The notes under the pieces were generated by a model that worked only from the letters and a program-made list of their open reading frames with translations, ran no database searches and was not told where the DNA came from. A stretch of DNA of 64,000 bases from Vibrio marisflavi CECT 7928 (GTDB taxonomy: Bacteria; Pseudomonadota; Gammaproteobacteria; Enterobacterales; Vibrionaceae), in contig NZ_CAKLDM010000002.1 in assembly GCF_921294215.1 (NCBI RefSeq), positions 2,418,001 to 2,482,000 on the forward strand, in the 5' to 3' direction. Positions 19,394 to 52,821 of this stretch are shown one piece after another (within the stretch, counting starts at the first letter, position 1; each line of letters begins with the position of its first letter). A program made the position numbers and the translations under genes.

Positions 19394-19529
19394 GTTATCT
19401 TCCTATATTCAATGATGCGAATAGTTACATTAGAGTACTTTTTGCACACAAACAACTACAAAGGACTTGTTTTGTTAACAATTATTGATTGACAATTTTC
19501 TGATAAACACGTTCAATAAATGGGCTTAA

Positions 19530-19705
19530 TGCAGGAGAGGAGCACTGCCCAGGCAGGCATTTTGTGGAGCCATAACTCCAAAACAAGATGCTGATGGGGA
19601 GCAGTGCCGAGATGATTTCAACGTATGGGTTGAGATTGTCGGTTATCGGGGCTGAATCCCCTTAACTGTCACTGGTCTCCCCAGTGAAGAGCTTCTGAAG
19701 GTATC
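19530..19705 (+). promoter_or_regulatory. lysine riboswitch (L box) of lysC
   Basis: The stretch aligns segment by segment with the E. coli lysC L box: AGAGGAGCACTGCCCA, GTGGAGCCA, GGGGAGCAGTGCCGAGATGA, GTCGGTTATCGGGGCTGAAT, CCCCTTAACTGTCACTGG and the closing GAGCTTCTGAAGG. The highly conserved GGGGCTGAATCCCC hairpin and GCCGAG junction are intact. It should bind lysine and reduce lysC expression when lysine is plentiful. It ends about 110 bases before the lysC start codon. Confidence 0.93.
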
Positions 19706-19814: not shown

Positions 19815-21167
19815 GTGAGCAATTTCAACGTCGCTAAATTTGGTGGTACCAGCGTCGCAAACTTTGAAGCAATGAGCCGTTGCGCTTCAATTGTAGAAAA
19901 TAACCCTCAAACAAAACTGATCGTCAGCAGTGCGTGTTCAGGTGTCACAAATATCTTGGTAGCCCTAGCTAATGGTGTTCAAGATGCTGAACAACGTGAC
20001 AGTTTAGTAAACCAATTGGCAGACATACATCATGCAGTATTGGATCAACTCTCCGATCCTGTTGAAACAGAGAAAAGTATTCAAACCATACTCAGCTCAG
20101 TAGCTAGCGCAGCAGAAGCCGCCTCGTATCAACCAAGCAAAAAACTCACCGATCATCTGGTTTCAACCGGTGAGCTCATGTCGACATTGCTTCTCACGCA
20201 AATATTCAAAGAAAGAGGCAATAATGCGGTTCGCTTTGATATTCGAGATGTCATGAGAACTGATGACAATTATGGTAAAGCCGAAGCTCAACTTGAAACC
20301 ATTTTTTCTCTTGCTCAAGAAAAGCTTTTGCCACTGTGTGAGAGCAATATCGTCATTACTCAAGGCTTTATTGGTAGTGATTCTGAAGGCAACACCACAA
20401 CATTTGGCCGCGGTGGCAGTGACTACAGTGCTGCTCTGATAGCAGAAGCCGTTCAAGCTAATGGGCTAGAGATCTGGACAGATGTCCCTGGTATTTACAC
20501 CACCGACCCACGGATTGCTCCCAAAGCAACGCCTATCCCTGAAATTAGCTTTAGCGAAGCATCCGAAATGGCCAACTTCGGTGCAAAAATACTTCATCCA
20601 TCAACCTTAGTACCTGCTCTTCGCCATGATATTCCGGTATTTGTCGGCTCTTCTAAGCAGCCTGAAAAAGGGGGTACTTGGATACGCCATCAGGTGCAAA
20701 GTAAGCCTCTATTTCGCGCACTTGCACTGAGACGTAACCAAACTATGGTCACGCTTCGTAGTGCCAGCATGTTCCACGCTTATGGCTTTTTGGCCAAAGT
20801 ATTTGAAATCTTGGCCAAGCATAAGATATCGGTCGACCTAATCACCACTTCGGAAATCAGTGTTTCATTGACCCTAGACCAAACTGACACTACAGGCGGT
20901 GCCCCAGAGTTGCCAGCGACAGCGAAAGCTGAGCTTGAAGAACTATGTACCGTAGAAGTCGAAAATGACCTGTGCGTTGTAGCATTGATAGGTAACAATA
21001 TCAGCAAGCAAAAAGGTTATGCCTCGCAAGTATTTAGTGCTGTCGAAAACTTTAACCTCAAGATGATTTGTTATGGAGCAAGCCCAAACAATCTCTGCTT
21101 CCTTGTCCACGAGTCTGAATCAACAGACGCTATTGAGAAGCTGCACTTTGAGTTATTTGAGCAATAA
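19815..21167 (+). CDS. lysC: lysine-sensitive aspartokinase III
   Basis: 450-residue aspartate kinase catalysing the first step of the aspartate family pathway (lysine, threonine, methionine, isoleucine, diaminopimelate). The kinase domain has KFGGTSVANFEAM (about residues 8-20), TTFGRGGSDYSAAL (about 196-209) and WTDVPGIYTTDPR (about 219-231). Two ACT domains follow (about 310-450), the lysine-binding part. The length matches E. coli LysC (449). The start is GTG at 19815, supported by GGAG eight bases upstream and by the family N-terminus. Control by the lysine riboswitch plus allosteric inhibition gives two layers of lysine feedback. Confidence 0.97.
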   Translation: MSNFNVAKFGGTSVANFEAMSRCASIVENNPQTKLIVSSACSGVTNILVALANGVQDAEQRDSLVNQLADIHHAVLDQLSDPVETEKSIQTILSSVASAAEAASYQPSKKLTDHLVSTGELMSTLLLTQIFKERGNNAVRFDIRDVMRTDDNYGKAEAQLETIFSLAQEKLLPLCESNIVITQGFIGSDSEGNTTTFGRGGSDYSAALIAEAVQANGLEIWTDVPGIYTTDPRIAPKATPIPEISFSEASEMANFGAKILHPSTLVPALRHDIPVFVGSSKQPEKGGTWIRHQVQSKPLFRALALRRNQTMVTLRSASMFHAYGFLAKVFEILAKHKISVDLITTSEISVSLTLDQTDTTGGAPELPATAKAELEELCTVEVENDLCVVALIGNNISKQKGYASQVFSAVENFNLKMICYGASPNNLCFLVHESESTDAIEKLHFELFEQ

Positions 21168-21364: not shown

Positions 21365-21393
21365 TTGACAGCCAAAAATGGCGCTGTTAGTTT
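21365..21393 (+). promoter_or_regulatory. promoter of the isoleucine-rich leader and MFS gene
   Basis: A perfect -35 TTGACA (21365-21370), 17 bases of spacer and a -10-like TAGTTT (21388-21393). Transcription would begin near 21400, about 45 bases before the leader peptide start and about 195 bases before the transporter start. The upstream DNA is AT-rich. The -10 is imperfect, so the exact start is uncertain. Confidence 0.65.
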
Positions 21394-21444
21394 GAATTAA
21401 GTTAATTTTTCCAGTTAAAAGTTTTACAGGTTCGCACAATCACC

Positions 21445-21522
21445 ATGATGATCTTCTCGGCTAACACAATTAAACAAATTATTATCGAGATTATTATTAT
21501 CAGGCGGTGCGGGCTTGAGTGA
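21445..21522 (+). CDS. isoleucine-rich leader peptide (putative attenuator peptide)
   Basis: A 25-codon ORF starting ATG-ATG, with stop TGA at 21520-21522. Nine codons are isoleucine (positions 3, 9, 12-14 and 16-19); seven of them fall within codons 12-19, the only interruption being a Glu. The C-terminal part is RRCGLE. ATT and ATC are used, not ATA. A candidate ribosome site is ACAGG at 21426-21430, farther upstream than ideal. The ORF lies between a promoter and a terminator with a competing antiterminator, so it should act as the sensor of tRNA-Ile charging, like the ilv leader peptides. It was recognised by reading the intergenic region codon by codon and is too short for normal gene calling. 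Confidence 0.8.
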   Translation: MMIFSANTIKQIIIEIIIIRRCGLE

Positions 21523-21570
21523 GTTGTATATCTCAAACTAAGCCTCGCACCTTCGGGTCCGAGGCTTTTT
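21505..21570 (+). terminator. transcription attenuator: antiterminator versus terminator hairpins
   Basis: Terminator: AGCCTCG pairs with CGAGGCT, extended by ACC/GGT around a TTCG loop (21541-21567), then seven T's. Antiterminator: GGTGCGGGCTT (21505-21515) pairs with AAGCCTCGCACC (21540-21551) with one bulged base, which would consume the 5' arm of the terminator. The first antiterminator arm overlaps the last codons of the leader ORF, so a ribosome at the stop codon covers it (termination), whereas one stalled in the Ile run leaves it free (read-through). Confidence 0.85.
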
Positions 21571-21596
21571 TTATACCTAAATTTGGACGTCATAAA

Positions 21597-22889
21597 ATGA
21601 ACGTAAAAGCCTTATCAAAAGATCAGTACCAAGAAAGCTCAACCAATTATCGCGTCGCTTGGCTTGCGATAGCTCTTTGCTCCTGTTTCCTGTTTTACAA
21701 ATATGTTCTGCAGGTCTCTCCTTCTGTCATGACTGGTGAGCTAATGAAAGCGTTCAATGTGAACGGCGCTGGCCTTGGCAACCTAGCCGCCACATTTTTC
21801 TACAGCTACTTAGTCATTCAAATTACTTCAGGACCATCTTTAGATCGCTTTGGCGCTAGGTTTATTGGTGCTATCGCGTTGTTTGTCAGTGCAGCAGGTG
21901 CCTGGATTTTTGCCCATGCAACACAACTTGTATGGGCAGAAACAGGACGAGCTATGATGGGAGCCGGCGTAGCCTTTGCCACTGTTACTTACCTTAAAGT
22001 CGCGTCAACATGGTTTAGTGCTAAACGTTTCGCTTTTCTCAGCGGCTTAGTTCCTACCGCGGTCATGGTTGGGGCGGTATTTGGCCAAGTACCATTGGCG
22101 CATGTCGTTTCTGATGAGGGGTGGCGCCGTTCACTAGAACTCGTAGCAGTGCTAGGCGTTATTTTGTCAGTCGCTTTCTTGCTGTTCGTTCGTGATAAAA
22201 AAGGTTCCAGTAACGATGTACCAATGTCAGAGAAAGTACATTGGAAAGACAGTCTGCAAGTTTTGAAAAAGCCAGCTAACTGGATGCTTACACTATACAG
22301 TGGATTGGCTTTCGCTCCCTTAGCAGTATTCGCAGGCCTTTGGGGAAATCCTTTTTTAACTACCACCTATCACATCACAACCTCGCAAGCTGCTTCTTTA
22401 ACATCATTAGTATTTATCGGCTTAGGTGTTGGCGGACCTGTATTTGGTCTACTTTCAGACTATACAGGTAAACGTACGTCATGGATGTTTATCGGCGGCA
22501 TCATCACTTTAGTGAGTGTTATGGCCATCCTATATTCTCACCAACTCAATCATATTGAACTTAGCGTGTTGATGTTCCTTTTCGGCTTTGGCACTGGAGC
22601 ATTTATGATTGGCTTCGCGATGGCAAAAGATCTCAACTCACTGCTGCTTGCTGGCACCATAGTAGCAATGGTCAACACTGGCGATGCTATTCTTGGCGCG
22701 ATTACCGAACCACTTGTTGGCTACGCACTTGATTTAGGCTGGCATGGTAAAAAAGTGGCAGGGACACCAGTGTTCTCTACGCACGACTATGTACATTCGT
22801 TCAGTTTATTACCTATCTATCTTGTGCTTTCGCTTATCTTCCTTGCTCTGGCAGCAAAAATGATGAAAAAAGGCCAATACACTATCTAA
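21597..22889 (+). CDS. MFS transporter, Pht-like; predicted isoleucine/branched-chain amino-acid importer
   Basis: 430-residue major facilitator with about 12 hydrophobic segments. The first helix region reads FLFYKYVLQVSPSVMTGEL, followed by YSYLVIQITSGPSLDRFGAR, a pattern I associate with the Pht family of Legionella and Francisella amino-acid importers (threonine, valine and isoleucine permeases are known there). The motif-A-like loop DRFGAR and a second-half LLSDYTGKRTS loop are present. I place the start at ATG 21597: the longer in-frame GTG at 21519 would translate through the terminator hairpin. The isoleucine-rich attenuator directly upstream implies induction when isoleucine is short, hence uptake of isoleucine or a related amino acid. 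The substrate is inferred, not shown. A bidirectional terminator separates it from convergent metH. Confidence 0.82.
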   Translation: MNVKALSKDQYQESSTNYRVAWLAIALCSCFLFYKYVLQVSPSVMTGELMKAFNVNGAGLGNLAATFFYSYLVIQITSGPSLDRFGARFIGAIALFVSAAGAWIFAHATQLVWAETGRAMMGAGVAFATVTYLKVASTWFSAKRFAFLSGLVPTAVMVGAVFGQVPLAHVVSDEGWRRSLELVAVLGVILSVAFLLFVRDKKGSSNDVPMSEKVHWKDSLQVLKKPANWMLTLYSGLAFAPLAVFAGLWGNPFLTTTYHITTSQAASLTSLVFIGLGVGGPVFGLLSDYTGKRTSWMFIGGIITLVSVMAILYSHQLNHIELSVLMFLFGFGTGAFMIGFAMAKDLNSLLLAGTIVAMVNTGDAILGAITEPLVGYALDLGWHGKKVAGTPVFSTHDYVHSFSLLPIYLVLSLIFLALAAKMMKKGQYTI

Positions 22890-22932: not shown

Positions 22933-25900
22933 CTAATCTAAATTAGGCGCTAGCCATTTCTCTGCAGTTTCTATATCCCAACCTTTTCGGTCGGCATAAC
23001 TCTCTAGCTGATCTTGCTGGATTTGAGCAACGGCAAAGTAACGTGAATCAGGGTGAGAGAAATACCAACCCGAAACTGACGCCCCTGGCCACATTGCATA
23101 ACTTGAAGTTAAAGACATACCAATAGTTTCTTCAACGTTCAGCAATTGCCACAAGCTTTCTTTTTCGGTGTGCTCAGGGCATGCAGGATAACCCGGTGCA
23201 GGACGAATACCTTGATAGCGCTCTCGAATAAGCTCTTCATTCGATAGGCTCTCATCAGCTGAATAGCCCCAAATTTCTTTTCGAACTCGTTCATGTAAGC
23301 ATTCGGCAAAAGCTTCCGCTAACCGGTCAGCAACCGCTTGGATCATGATCGCGTTGTAATCATCACCTTTTGCTTTATATTCGTCAGCAAGCTCTCTTTC
23401 ACCAATTCCACCAGTTACCGCAAACGCGCCAATCCAATCCTGTTTGCCCGACGCTTTCGGAGCAACATAATCAGAAAGGCAATAGTTGTAGCCTTTTGGT
23501 TTCTCGGTTTGTTGGCGAAGATTATGCAGAACTTTCAACACCTCGCTGCGAGATTCATCAGTGTAGACTTCAATATCATCGTCAATACTTGCTGCAGGGA
23601 AAAGGGCGCACATACCGCTCGCCTTAAGAAGCTTTTCTTTTTCTACTCGATCAAGCAGATCATTCGCATCTTTGAATAGCCTTTGCGCTTCTTCGCCGAC
23701 TTCCTCATGTTGCAAAATCGCAGGGTATTTGCCCATCAATGACCAAGTCATAAAGAATGGCGTCCAATCGATGTACTTTCGCAATTCAGCCACATCAAAG
23801 TCTTCGAACACATGCACTCCTGGCTTTACTGGTTTTGGCGGTGTATACCTCGCCCAGTCAATCGCCACTTTATTTTCACGCGCTTTTTCTAACGTAACAG
23901 GCTTAGTTCGCGGCGTTTTGCGATTGTGTTGATCACGTACTCGCTCATAATCTAGATCGAGCTTTTCGATAAAGGCAGGACGTAGCTCATCGGAAAGTAA
24001 CGAAGTACACACACCTACTGCACGAGATGCATTGTTAACATAGACAACTGGCTGGTGGTAGTTTTGCTCGATTTTCACAGCCGTGTGGGCTTTTGATGTC
24101 GTCGCACCACCAATTAGCAGTGGTAGGTCAAAGCCTTGACGCTCCATCTCTTTAGCAACATGCACCATTTCATCCAGCGAAGGAGTAATCAACCCTGATA
24201 AACCGATAATATCGACATTTTCTTCCTTAGCGACTTTTAGAATTTTTTCACAAGGCACCATTACGCCAAGGTCAATAATTTCGTAGTTGTTGCACTGTAA
24301 AACCACTCCAACGATATTTTTTCCGATGTCGTGCACGTCACCTTTAACCGTTGCCAATAATATTTTGCCGTTCGAGTGTCCCGCTTGTTTCTCTGCGTTA
24401 ATGAAGGGCTCTAGGTGCGCTACTGCTTGCTTCATTACACGTGCAGACTTTACTACTTGGGGTAGGAACATTTTGCCTTCACCAAACAGATCGCCAACCA
24501 CGTTCATACCGTCCATCAACGGCCCTTCGATCACTTCAAGCGGTCTACTTGCATTGGTACGAGCCTCTTCGGTATCTTCGACAATGAACTCAGTAATACC
24601 TTTGACTAATGCATGTTCAAGACGCTTCTCAACAGGCCAAGTTCGCCACTCTAGCGCTGAAGCATCATCCTCTTTGTTTGCACCTTTGCCGGCGTACTCT
24701 CCCGCAATATCCAACAATCTTTCCGTTGCATCATCACGGCGATTAAGCACCACATCTTCAACGGCTTCACGCAGCTTTTCAGGGACATTGTCATAGATCT
24801 CAAGCTGGCCAGCATTAACGATGCCCATATCCATACCATTTCTAAAACAGTGATACAGGAAGACTGCATGAATTGCTTCGCGCACATAGTTGTTACCACG
24901 AAAAGAGAACGAAACATTGGATACGCCACCGGAAATCATGGCATGCGGCAAGTCTCTTTTTATATCTGCGACGGCATTAATGAAGTCGACAGCATAATTA
25001 TTGTGCTCTTCGATACCAGTCGCGACGGCAAATATGTTCGGGTCAAAGATAATATCTTCTGGTGGGAAGCCAACTTCGTCGACCAAGATTCGATAAGCGT
25101 TGGTACAAATCTCCAGCTTACGTTCACGAGTTTCTGCTTGGCCAATCTCATCAAACGCCATCACGATAACAGCCGCACCATAACGGCGTATCAGTTTAGC
25201 ATGCTCTACAAAAATCTCTTTGCCTTCTTTCATTGAGATCGAGTTAACAATGCCTTTGCCTTGGATGCACTTTAGACCAGCTTCAATCACTTCCCATTTA
25301 GAAGAGTCGACCATGATTGGCACTTTTGAAATCTCAGGCTCCGATGCGCACAGCTTAAGGAACTTCTCCATGCACGCTTCGGCATCAAGCATGCCTTCAT
25401 CCATATTGATATCGATGATTTGTGCGCCATTCTCAACTTGCTGTCTAGCCACCTCAAGCGCTTCATCATAAAGCTCTTCTTTAATTAGTCTTTTAAAGCG
25501 TGCAGAGCCAGTGACGTTAGTCCGTTCACCGACATTGACGAATAGCGTGTCTTTTTCAATGGTAAGAGGCTCAAGCCCTGAAAGACGACAAGCGACTGGA
25601 ATTTCTGGCAAAGTACGTGGAGCAATAGATTCAACTGCCTCGGCCATTTTACGAATGTGCTCTGGAGTCGTACCACAACAGCCACCAATCATATTTAAAA
25701 AGCCACTTTCCGCCCATTCTTTAACATGAGATGCCATATCCTCAGGAGAAAGGTCATACTCACCAAAAGCATTAGGTAAACCAGCATTTGGATGCGCCGA
25801 CACAAAAGTTTCCGATATACGCGACAGCTCTTCCACATATGGGCGTAGTTCATCTGGCCCTAGTGCACAGTTCAAACCAAAGGAAATAGGGTTTACATGT

Positions 25901-26628
25901 CGCAGTGCATTGTAGAATGCTTCCGTTGTTTGACCAGAAAGAGTACGGCCAGAGGCATCGGTAATTGTGCCGGAGATCATGACAGGTAGCTTGATTGAAA
26001 GCTCTTCGAATACACTTTCTACCGCAAAAGCACACGCTTTAGCATTCAATGTATCAAAAATGGTTTCAATTAGAATTAGATCAGCACCGCCTTTAATCAA
26101 AGCTCGCGTCGATTCTGAATAGGCTTCAACAAGATCATCAAAGCTGACATTGCGAAAACCGGGATCATTAACATCTGGCGAAATGGAACAGGTACGGTTA
26201 GTTGGGCCCAATACACCAGCAACATAACGAGGCTTTTCAGGTGTTTTTGCTGTCCACTCATCAGCCACTTCTCGAGCTAATTTAGCTGCAGCAAAGTTAA
26301 TCTCTTCACTGAGGCTTTCCATATCGTAGTCAGCCATCGCGATAGTGGTCGCATTGAAGGTGTTGGTTTCAAGAATATCAGCACCAGCAGCTAAGTACTC
26401 CGAGTGAATATCTTTGATAATTTTTGGCTGAGTTAATACCAGAAGATCGTTATTTCCTTTTAAGTCGCAATGCCAATCGGCAAAACGCTCGCCTCGATAT
26501 CCTTGTTCATCAAGCTTATATCCCTGAATCATGGTGCCCATACCACCATCTATCAGTAAAATCCTTTGATTAAGTTGATCAACTATCTGCTGTCTAACTT
26601 CACTTTGATGCTTAGCGCTGCTTCCCAC
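22933..26628 (-). CDS. metH: cobalamin-dependent methionine synthase
   Basis: 1231-residue enzyme transferring a methyl group from 5-methyltetrahydrofolate to homocysteine. The homocysteine domain (about 1-345) has the zinc cysteines in GLNCALGP (about 252) and GGCCGTT (about 316-317). The pterin domain spans about 360-640. The B12 domain carries the DVHDIGKN motif that supplies the cobalt-ligating His (about 763-770) and [11 protein letters not shown]. The C-terminal reactivation domain (about 900-1231) has [15 protein letters not shown] for AdoMet. The length is close to E. coli MetH (1227). The start is GTG at 26628, with GAGG about seven bases upstream. Two MetJ boxes lie 52-67 bases upstream, predicting repression by S-adenosylmethionine. 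Confidence 0.98.
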
Positions 26629-52369: not shown

Positions 52370-52726
52370 TTATTTCTTGATCGGCTTACGCGGACCCTTA
52401 CGGGTGCGAGCGTTGGTTTTAGTACGCTGTCCACGTAGTGGTAGACTGCGACGATGACGAAGACCACGGTAACAGCCAAGGTCCATAAGACGCTTGATGT
52501 TCATTGATACTTCACGACGTAGATCACCTTCTACAGTGTACTTAGCTACACCATCACGCAGTTGATCAATCTGCTCTTCAGTTAGTTCACTGATCTTTGC
52601 ATTTTCAGCAATACCCACTTCAGCTAGGATAGCTTGAGAACGAGTTTTACCGATACCGTAGATTGCAGTTAATGCAATTACAGCATGCTTTTGATCAGGA
52701 ATGTTAATGCCTGCTATACGGGCCAC
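52370..52726 (-). CDS. rpsM: 30S ribosomal protein S13
   Basis: 118 residues (E. coli 118). [20 protein letters not shown], the helical [13 protein letters not shown] and the basic tail [20 protein letters not shown] identify S13, which bridges the 30S head to the 50S subunit and P-site tRNA. First gene of the alpha operon. Its start is GTG at 52726, preceded by AGGAGTGAATA, and lies in the leader that S4 is expected to control. Confidence 0.98.
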
Positions 52727-52821
52727 TATTCACTCCTAGTACTTAAATAAGAAATTATCCGCAGCAAAGCCCGTCGAGGATACGCTGCGGCATACTACTT
52801 CTTTTGCACGCAAAAGGTAGG
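52727..52821 (-). promoter_or_regulatory. alpha operon leader, likely S4-responsive
   Basis: The transcribed leader between the alpha promoter and rpsM. A stem CCGCAGC (52759-52765) with GCTGCGG (52784-52790) is the main visible structure, followed by AGGAG before the GTG start. E. coli S4 represses translation through a pseudoknot at the corresponding place; I could not confirm the pseudoknot by eye. Confidence 0.5.

Follow-up and report, generated by a model that had tools for sequence, protein, structure and literature searches.

A predicted isoleucine-responsive transcription attenuator before a Pht-like MFS permease gene in Vibrio marisflavi, with isoleucine and valine counterparts in Piscirickettsia-like genomes

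Described attenuators and Pht-type permeases

The attenuators of the trp, his, leu, thr and ilvGMEDA biosynthetic operons share a leader ORF with control codons, RNA arms that pair in alternative ways, masking of the second arm by a ribosome at the stop codon, and a terminator before the structural gene (for comparison, see the available part of PMC3766115 (2013)). The locus described here has the same elements and lies in a 64,000-nucleotide stretch of Vibrio marisflavi CECT 7928 DNA, called the window below, but it differs from the biosynthetic-operon attenuators in that its target is an MFS permease rather than an enzyme operon, its control run is of Ile codons alone, and it has apparently been transferred horizontally. 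A transporter can also stand behind an attenuator of another kind: Vitreschak et al. 2004 reportedly predicted histidine-attenuated transporters by comparative genomics and used the attenuators to infer substrate. Those systems place the attenuator before a transporter in the same way but concern histidine and other transporter families, and we know of no Ile/Val codon exchange among them.

The permease itself resembles the Pht family, MFS permeases that intracellular gammaproteobacteria carry as several paralogues in one genome and that according to the available parts of PMC5368251 and PMC4319460 include PhtA (Thr), PhtJ (Val), Francisella IleP (Ile) and AnsP (Asn). Attenuator control is not described in those parts, and the present gene differs in occurring also in Vibrio genomes that have ilvC. 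The accessible portion of PMC5368251 speculates that isoleucine acts on gene expression in Francisella through some mechanism still to be identified; for bacteria of this kind, attenuation is a candidate. In the open-licence papers searched, control of a Pht-type permease by an Ile attenuator was not found, and the RimP leader is the sole attenuator named in the available part of a survey of P. salmonis ncRNAs (PMC5955585). As far as these literature searches reach, the mechanism is classical, and the new elements are the Pht-like MFS target, the exchange of Ile and Val codons on one scaffold, and the apparent transfer of the unit.

Anatomy of the leader and its predicted switching

The leader lies between lysC and the permease gene. 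The Rfam search of the window returned the lysine riboswitch and the Alpha_RBS match listed below and nothing else, no family exceeding its gathering score at the leader. The features are as follows.

19527-19702: lysine riboswitch before lysC (Rfam search of the window)
19815-21167: lysC, aspartokinase III, upstream of the leader (family search)
21365-21393, forward strand: putative promoter, TTGACA (21365-21370), 17 bases, TAGTTT (21388-21393)
21428-21437, forward strand: arm 1, AGGTTCGCAC, able to pair with arm 2 at 21507-21516
21445-21522, forward strand: leader peptide ORF, MMIFSANTIKQIIIEIIIIRRCGLE and stop, 25 codons with 9 Ile, read from the sequence and conserved in V. sinus
21478-21501, forward strand: candidate control codons, Ile codons 12-14 and 16-19 (sequence, stall model, shuffles)
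21506-21516, forward strand: arm 2, GGTGCGGGCTT, within the leader ORF, able to pair with arm 1 or arm 3
21540-21551, forward strand: arm 3, AAGCCTCGCACC, common to antiterminator and terminator (2:3 duplex -19.0 kcal/mol)
21556-21567, forward strand: arm 4 of the terminator, GGTCCGAGGCTT (terminator -15.8 kcal/mol)
21566-21572, forward strand: terminator T-run, seven T (sequence, terminator scan)
21597-22889, forward strand: MFS transporter, 430 aa, Pht-like (Pfam MFS_1, E 2.4e-29)
52694-52802, reverse strand: Alpha operon ribosome binding site (Alpha_RBS) match (Rfam search of the window)

Beyond the permease gene, an ORF on the reverse strand at 22933-26628 is one that we take to be metH. 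The order lysC, leader, permease, metH-like ORF is common to V. sinus, which also has an ATG at the position matching the permease start.

The initial annotation had seen a 25-codon ORF at 21445-21522 with 9 Ile codons, seven of them in codons 12-19, and the letters bear this out. They also bear out its potential pairing of arm 2 with 21540-21551, which doubles as the 5' arm of a terminator hairpin (11 pairs between arms 3 and 4, TTCG loop) ending in seven T. The coordinates that it gave for GGTGCGGGCTT, 21505-21515, were off by one (actual 21506-21516), and it had missed arm 1, AGGTTCGCAC at 21428-21437. Its promoter stood in part: TTGACA occurs 66-92 bases 5' of the leader start in all eight related leaders, but the -10 hexamer TAGTTT is weak and the promoter scan did not list 21365. 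The AGG inside arm 1 may be the ribosome-binding site of the leader; AGG is found 5' of eight of eight leaders, and its distance from the start codon in the five Ile leaders, 16-17 bases, is a poor spacing.

Of the elements of a ribosome-mediated attenuator, the repeated codons for a single residue in a putatively translated leader ORF and the intrinsic terminator between leader and gene are both present here. Among the 1641 window ORFs of 10-50 aa on both strands, a single-residue run of seven in eight codons occurred in the leader ORF and its own antisense shadow only, and when the intergenic region was shuffled 5000 times by dinucleotides, an Ile run of seven in eight appeared once. Folding of the leader RNA, named at the outset as a check, also came out in favour of structure: the 151-nt RNA reached -44.9 kcal/mol where shuffles averaged -28.5 (sd 3.2; z -5.07), with 0 of 200 shuffles as stable, and bases 21430-21437 of arm 1 were paired in the MFE fold. 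Across the eight leaders, arm 3 begins 17-19 bases 3' of the stop codon, the 1:2 duplex ranges from -13.4 to -18.4 kcal/mol (-18.4 in the window), and the 2:3 duplex, which excludes the 3:4 terminator, from -15.4 to -19.0 kcal/mol; the 2:3 pairing is imperfect in the three Val leaders described below and in some Ile leaders.

We consider it very probable that this leader is a ribosome-mediated transcription attenuator through which a shortage of charged isoleucyl-tRNA switches on an amino-acid permease. In cells well supplied with Ile, the ribosome would reach the stop codon and mask arm 2, leaving arms 3 and 4 to pair and transcription to stop near 21572. Under Ile shortage, the ribosome would stall at codons 12-16 and arms 2 and 3 would pair, so that RNA polymerase would continue into the transporter gene.

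These states were modelled by folding the leader with the ribosome footprint removed and computing antiterminator and terminator probabilities with a partition model. The footprint was set to end 15 bases beyond the first nucleotide of the codon in the P site. For the window, a stall at codon 12 gave antiterminator 0.73 and terminator 0.17, and a stall at codon 16 gave 0.91 and 0.00; a stall at codon 19, the last of the run, did not free arm 2 and gave terminator 0.89. In the model it is thus the early codons of the run that decide the outcome. A ribosome at the stop codon gave terminator 0.90. Stalling at the first and at the middle codon of the run gave antiterminator 0.50 and 0.88 in V. sinus, and 0.55 and 0.82 in the Ile leader of a Piscirickettsia-like genome (G645), with terminator 0.90 and 0.89, respectively, at the stop. 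Codon placement in these three leaders is therefore such that, in the model, a stall frees arm 2 and a ribosome at the stop masks it. The stall rows for the Ile leaders of G545 and G428 were excluded, the runs picked by the script being poor, with no dense run. The geometry of trp/ilv type that had been proposed, with a stall freeing the arm and the stop codon covering it, fits the anatomy, the state modelling and the comparative evidence.

The model says less about a leader that is not being translated. The full ribosome-free RNA of the window favoured the terminator at equilibrium (0.89), and before arm 4 is made the 2:3 pairing, at 0.90, prevailed over 1:2. At L082, the Val leader of G645, all stalled states favoured the terminator at equilibrium, and the antiterminator (0.82) prevailed only as long as arm 4 was absent. 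The full ribosome-free RNA of all three Val leaders (L080, L081, L082) is predicted to favour the antiterminator (0.66, 0.63, 0.51), so that default-off behaviour does not extend to every leader; in the model, untranslated RNA is off by default at equilibrium alone, and among the Ile leaders alone.

Relatives in Vibrio and in Piscirickettsia-like genomes

At E <= 1e-30 the permease was found in 2 of 227 Vibrio genomes, the window genome (G000) and V. sinus S4M6 (G264), and not in the other 225. Alignment across Vibrionaceae, which the initial annotation had put forward as a check, is therefore inapplicable as stated; conservation of the leader turned up instead in V. sinus and three genomes of Piscirickettsia type, and its covariation part gave no support, the arms being too uniform. 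Window and V. sinus agree at 39% of positions between the lysC stop and the promoter, 73% over the promoter and 5' end, 8 of 17 bases at 21428-21444 (arm 1 to before the start codon), and 60% over the first ten leader codons. Identity then rises to 24/27 in the Ile run, where V. sinus has lost one Ile codon in frame, 21/21 at 21502-21522 (arm 2 to the stop), 12/19 in the spacer and 32/32 over the terminator (21540-21571), and falls to 16/25 after it. From this identity set against diverged flanks, we read selection as having preserved the control codons, arm 2 and also the terminator, arm 1 being weakly supported. As a separate observation, V. sinus carries on another contig a second, distant permease (L040, 33%), at which the scan flagged no leader.

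The closest relatives of the permease outside Vibrio, 72-74% identical, were found in three of three genomes of one family. Four stretches of these genomes matched plasmid records that were all from Piscirickettsia (37/37, 77/77, 105/105 and 310/310, the records of the third set covering at best 2% of the query), and three further stretches (L199, L202, L204) had no match in the plasmid collection; we take the three genomes as Piscirickettsia on the strength of these matches. Before the 72-74% permeases stand Ile-rich leaders, MMISALTVITRIIIALIIIRRCGPV, MMIISVLTVIILMMITLIIMRWCEPV and MMIISVLTVIILMIITLIIMRRCGPV, with the same arm 3 and terminator as the window; Met dilutes the Ile run in the last two (L052, L053), and one of the genomes has two in-frame stops in its Ile-type permease gene. 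The same three genomes all carry a paralogue, 53-55% identical to the window permease, that is preceded by a Val leader, MHLITSPVNLLINAVVVVVVLPLTRCRR or variants, with six consecutive Val. The Val leaders end on the same arm 2 core, GGTGC, and their arm 3 and terminator are alike at nearly all positions. Leader and transporter occur together in two families of bacteria.

R1, a covariance model that spans arms 2-4 and was built from the eight leaders, which therefore match it by construction, gave seven matches above 80 bits over 369 genomes of the class, all of them known leaders, the next match scoring 40.5. Over the 227 Vibrio genomes the window genome and V. sinus alone reached 88 bits, with the next at 41.5. 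Both searches used the stricter filters of Infernal, with loss of some weak matches. Covariation was uninformative because the arms vary too little: one pair of the 3:4 helix showed a two-sided change, with 181 of 500 shuffles as good, and none was seen in 2:3. In the antiterminator, 91.5% of cells pair, compared with at most 59.8% when the arms are slid.

It could be argued that an ordinary terminator happens to follow a chance Ile-rich ORF and that the transporter is not regulated by Ile. The missing covariation support is compatible with this, and so is a search of the window genome's own DNA that matched another AAGCCTCGCA...CGAGGC terminator, as similar terminators exist elsewhere. Yet V. 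sinus preserves the reading frame, the Ile run and arm 2 beside upstream DNA of 39% identity, the same layout recurs with Ile or Val runs in three Piscirickettsia-like genomes, and the shuffles almost never produced the run, so that we regard a chance origin as very unlikely and retain the attenuator.

A different proposal would derive the leader by duplication from the ilv attenuator native to the host, the copy being set before a transporter. The genome does have a native attenuator (L220), with leader MNLIARINTLVILIIVVIIDTARGRVGER, before an ilvG-type acetolactate synthase gene, and it is of the same mechanism class, with branched-chain codons. Its peptide, however, mixes Ile, Val and Leu, as is characteristic of the ilvGMEDA family and is not the case in the window leader, and its arms (CGCGGGGGCG / CCCCCGCAC) are unrelated in sequence. 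Both differences argue that the native attenuator was not the source. The nearest relatives found for the leader, moreover, precede the transporter's nearest relatives in the Piscirickettsia-like genomes, and duplication from the host's ilv attenuator is hardly credible.

In a midpoint-rooted tree of 38 permease proteins (L053 was left out for its in-frame stops), the two Vibrio members form a group with the Ile-type genes from Piscirickettsia (support 100/99), and this group of four joins the Val-type genes (support 100/99). Since the Vibrio pair groups with the Ile-type genes, leader and permease gene probably moved together. The simplest history would be duplication and Ile/Val divergence in the Piscirickettsia lineage, followed by passage of the Ile unit to the ancestor of the two Vibrio. 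From the tree grouping and the rarity of the gene in Vibrio we infer the direction of transfer, the donor being either Piscirickettsia-like or an unsampled third party.

A broader reading, to which we would give an even chance, is that a Piscirickettsia-type permease family is run by a modular attenuator in which codons are exchanged with substrate (Ile, Val, perhaps Cys), the Ile and Val versions sharing one RNA scaffold, so that the leader names the substrate. The sensor-permease cassette would move between families, and would have given this Vibrio a second, Ile-only layer of control beside the native ilv attenuator. The Ile/Val leader pair on one scaffold amounts to a natural codon-swap experiment for attenuator theory.

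Permease substrate, amino-acid need and other leaders

The permease scored below all NCBIfam model cut-offs in the NCBIfam search. It is an MFS_1 protein with sequence relatives in MAGs of Tatlockia (Legionellaceae; 42-44% identity), and is provisionally likened to the Pht proteins PhtA, PhtJ, AnsP and IleP. The plasmid collection held five records with relatives, at 29-34% identity only. A structure predicted from six sequences had a mean pLDDT of 53 and was set aside. By sequence, the PDB yielded four distant MFS chains, the best being MFSD1 (E 2.5e-5). MFSD1 is a lysosomal dipeptide transporter.

We propose that the permease is an isoleucine importer, on the grounds of its predicted induction by Ile shortage, the relatives in genomes that lack a detectable ilvC, and the Val leader on the sister paralogue. 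The attenuator might instead be real and the permease an exporter, or a carrier of Val, Leu, small peptides or another substrate; the MFSD1 match and the breadth of the MFS superfamily lend this some weight. Induction by Ile shortage makes little sense for an Ile exporter, however, the Val-leader paralogue suggests that leader and substrate are coupled, and Francisella IleP, a Pht-family MFS protein, imports isoleucine (PMC5368251, in the part available). We accordingly judge another substrate or direction unlikely, though it keeps appreciable weight, and prefer isoleucine import. MFS permeases of intracellular bacteria are numerous and hard to assign, and a leader run of Ile, Val or Cys would offer a testable prediction of substrate from DNA alone.

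No match to ilvC exceeded the cut-off in any of the nine non-Vibrio genomes, the three Piscirickettsia-like ones included. Among the remaining six, completeness is listed as 88% for G390 and 77% for G596, and G417 and G329 had sub-threshold matches. Both Vibrio genomes have ilvC. P. salmonis is without genes for Val, Leu and Ile synthesis according to the accessible part of PMC6277808, and in the available text of PMC5732189 the amino acids named as essential in silico are Ile, Leu, Val, Met, His, Arg and Cys. The Ile leaders, the Val leaders and a set of Cys-rich ORFs agree with that list, as far as this text extends.

The Cys-rich short ORFs stand upstream of a third Pht-like paralogue that the three Piscirickettsia-like genomes share; they read MTRCSALLSCCCCCC, MRNCSALILPLYCYSCCSCC and MKNCSALILPLYCCCSCCC at L083, L084 (reverse strand) and L085 (reverse strand), with no terminator seen at any of them. 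At L084 and L085 the ATG comes about 8-9 bases past a -10-like box, close enough that the mRNA may be leaderless, and these ORFs recall the polycysteine leaderless ORFs of mycobacteria. Six more distant relatives in the Piscirickettsia-like genomes (L208-L213) had no convincing leader in their upstream DNA.

Other leaders were sought in 127 regions upstream of permease-family genes (L039 repeats L001), a region being flagged for a branched-chain run of five in eight residues with a terminator downstream. Leader-like ORFs were flagged at L001/L039, L006, L051, L067 and L080-L082; L052 and L053, in which the Ile codons are broken up by Met, fell under the cut-off for that reason. Leu-rich ORFs further upstream in L069 and L082 were judged to be chance, as were runs without a terminator in L004, L071 and L073 and the seven regions flagged among the 80 of L089-L168 (L107, L113, L117, L120, L131, L133, L153). 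Runs without a terminator were also present at L054, L056, L068 and L083-L085, and these were retained as leads.

Of the 51 matches to R1 below 80 bits in the class genomes, 27 were inspected (L173-L198 and L042 of the window genome itself), and these look like generic terminators save for L193, which is L067, and perhaps L198. The latter (G547) is a GC-rich terminator hairpin directly 5' of another Pht-like MFS gene, and its short ORFs contain no amino-acid run. Three Vibrio matches at 39-42 bits (L228-L230) were rejected, as their letters complement the L220 leader and they appear to be the reverse strand of an ilv-type attenuator.

Possible attenuators precede related permeases at L064 (reverse strand), L067 (forward) and L069 (reverse), where leaders with NVVVNSTTRCGHML, RLVVKTTTRWGLML and TLTLLVVIIITSAGCG are each followed by a terminator of the CCCCGCAC type. 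Before permeases of 43-50% identity, L056 and L054 (both reverse strand) have the Ile-rich leaders IIISIIIIRLW and SIIILVISIS, and L068 (forward) the Val-rich leader VSVVVVVVVF; here the hairpins lie near or over the stop codon, with no clear terminator T-run, and perhaps reflect another mode of control.
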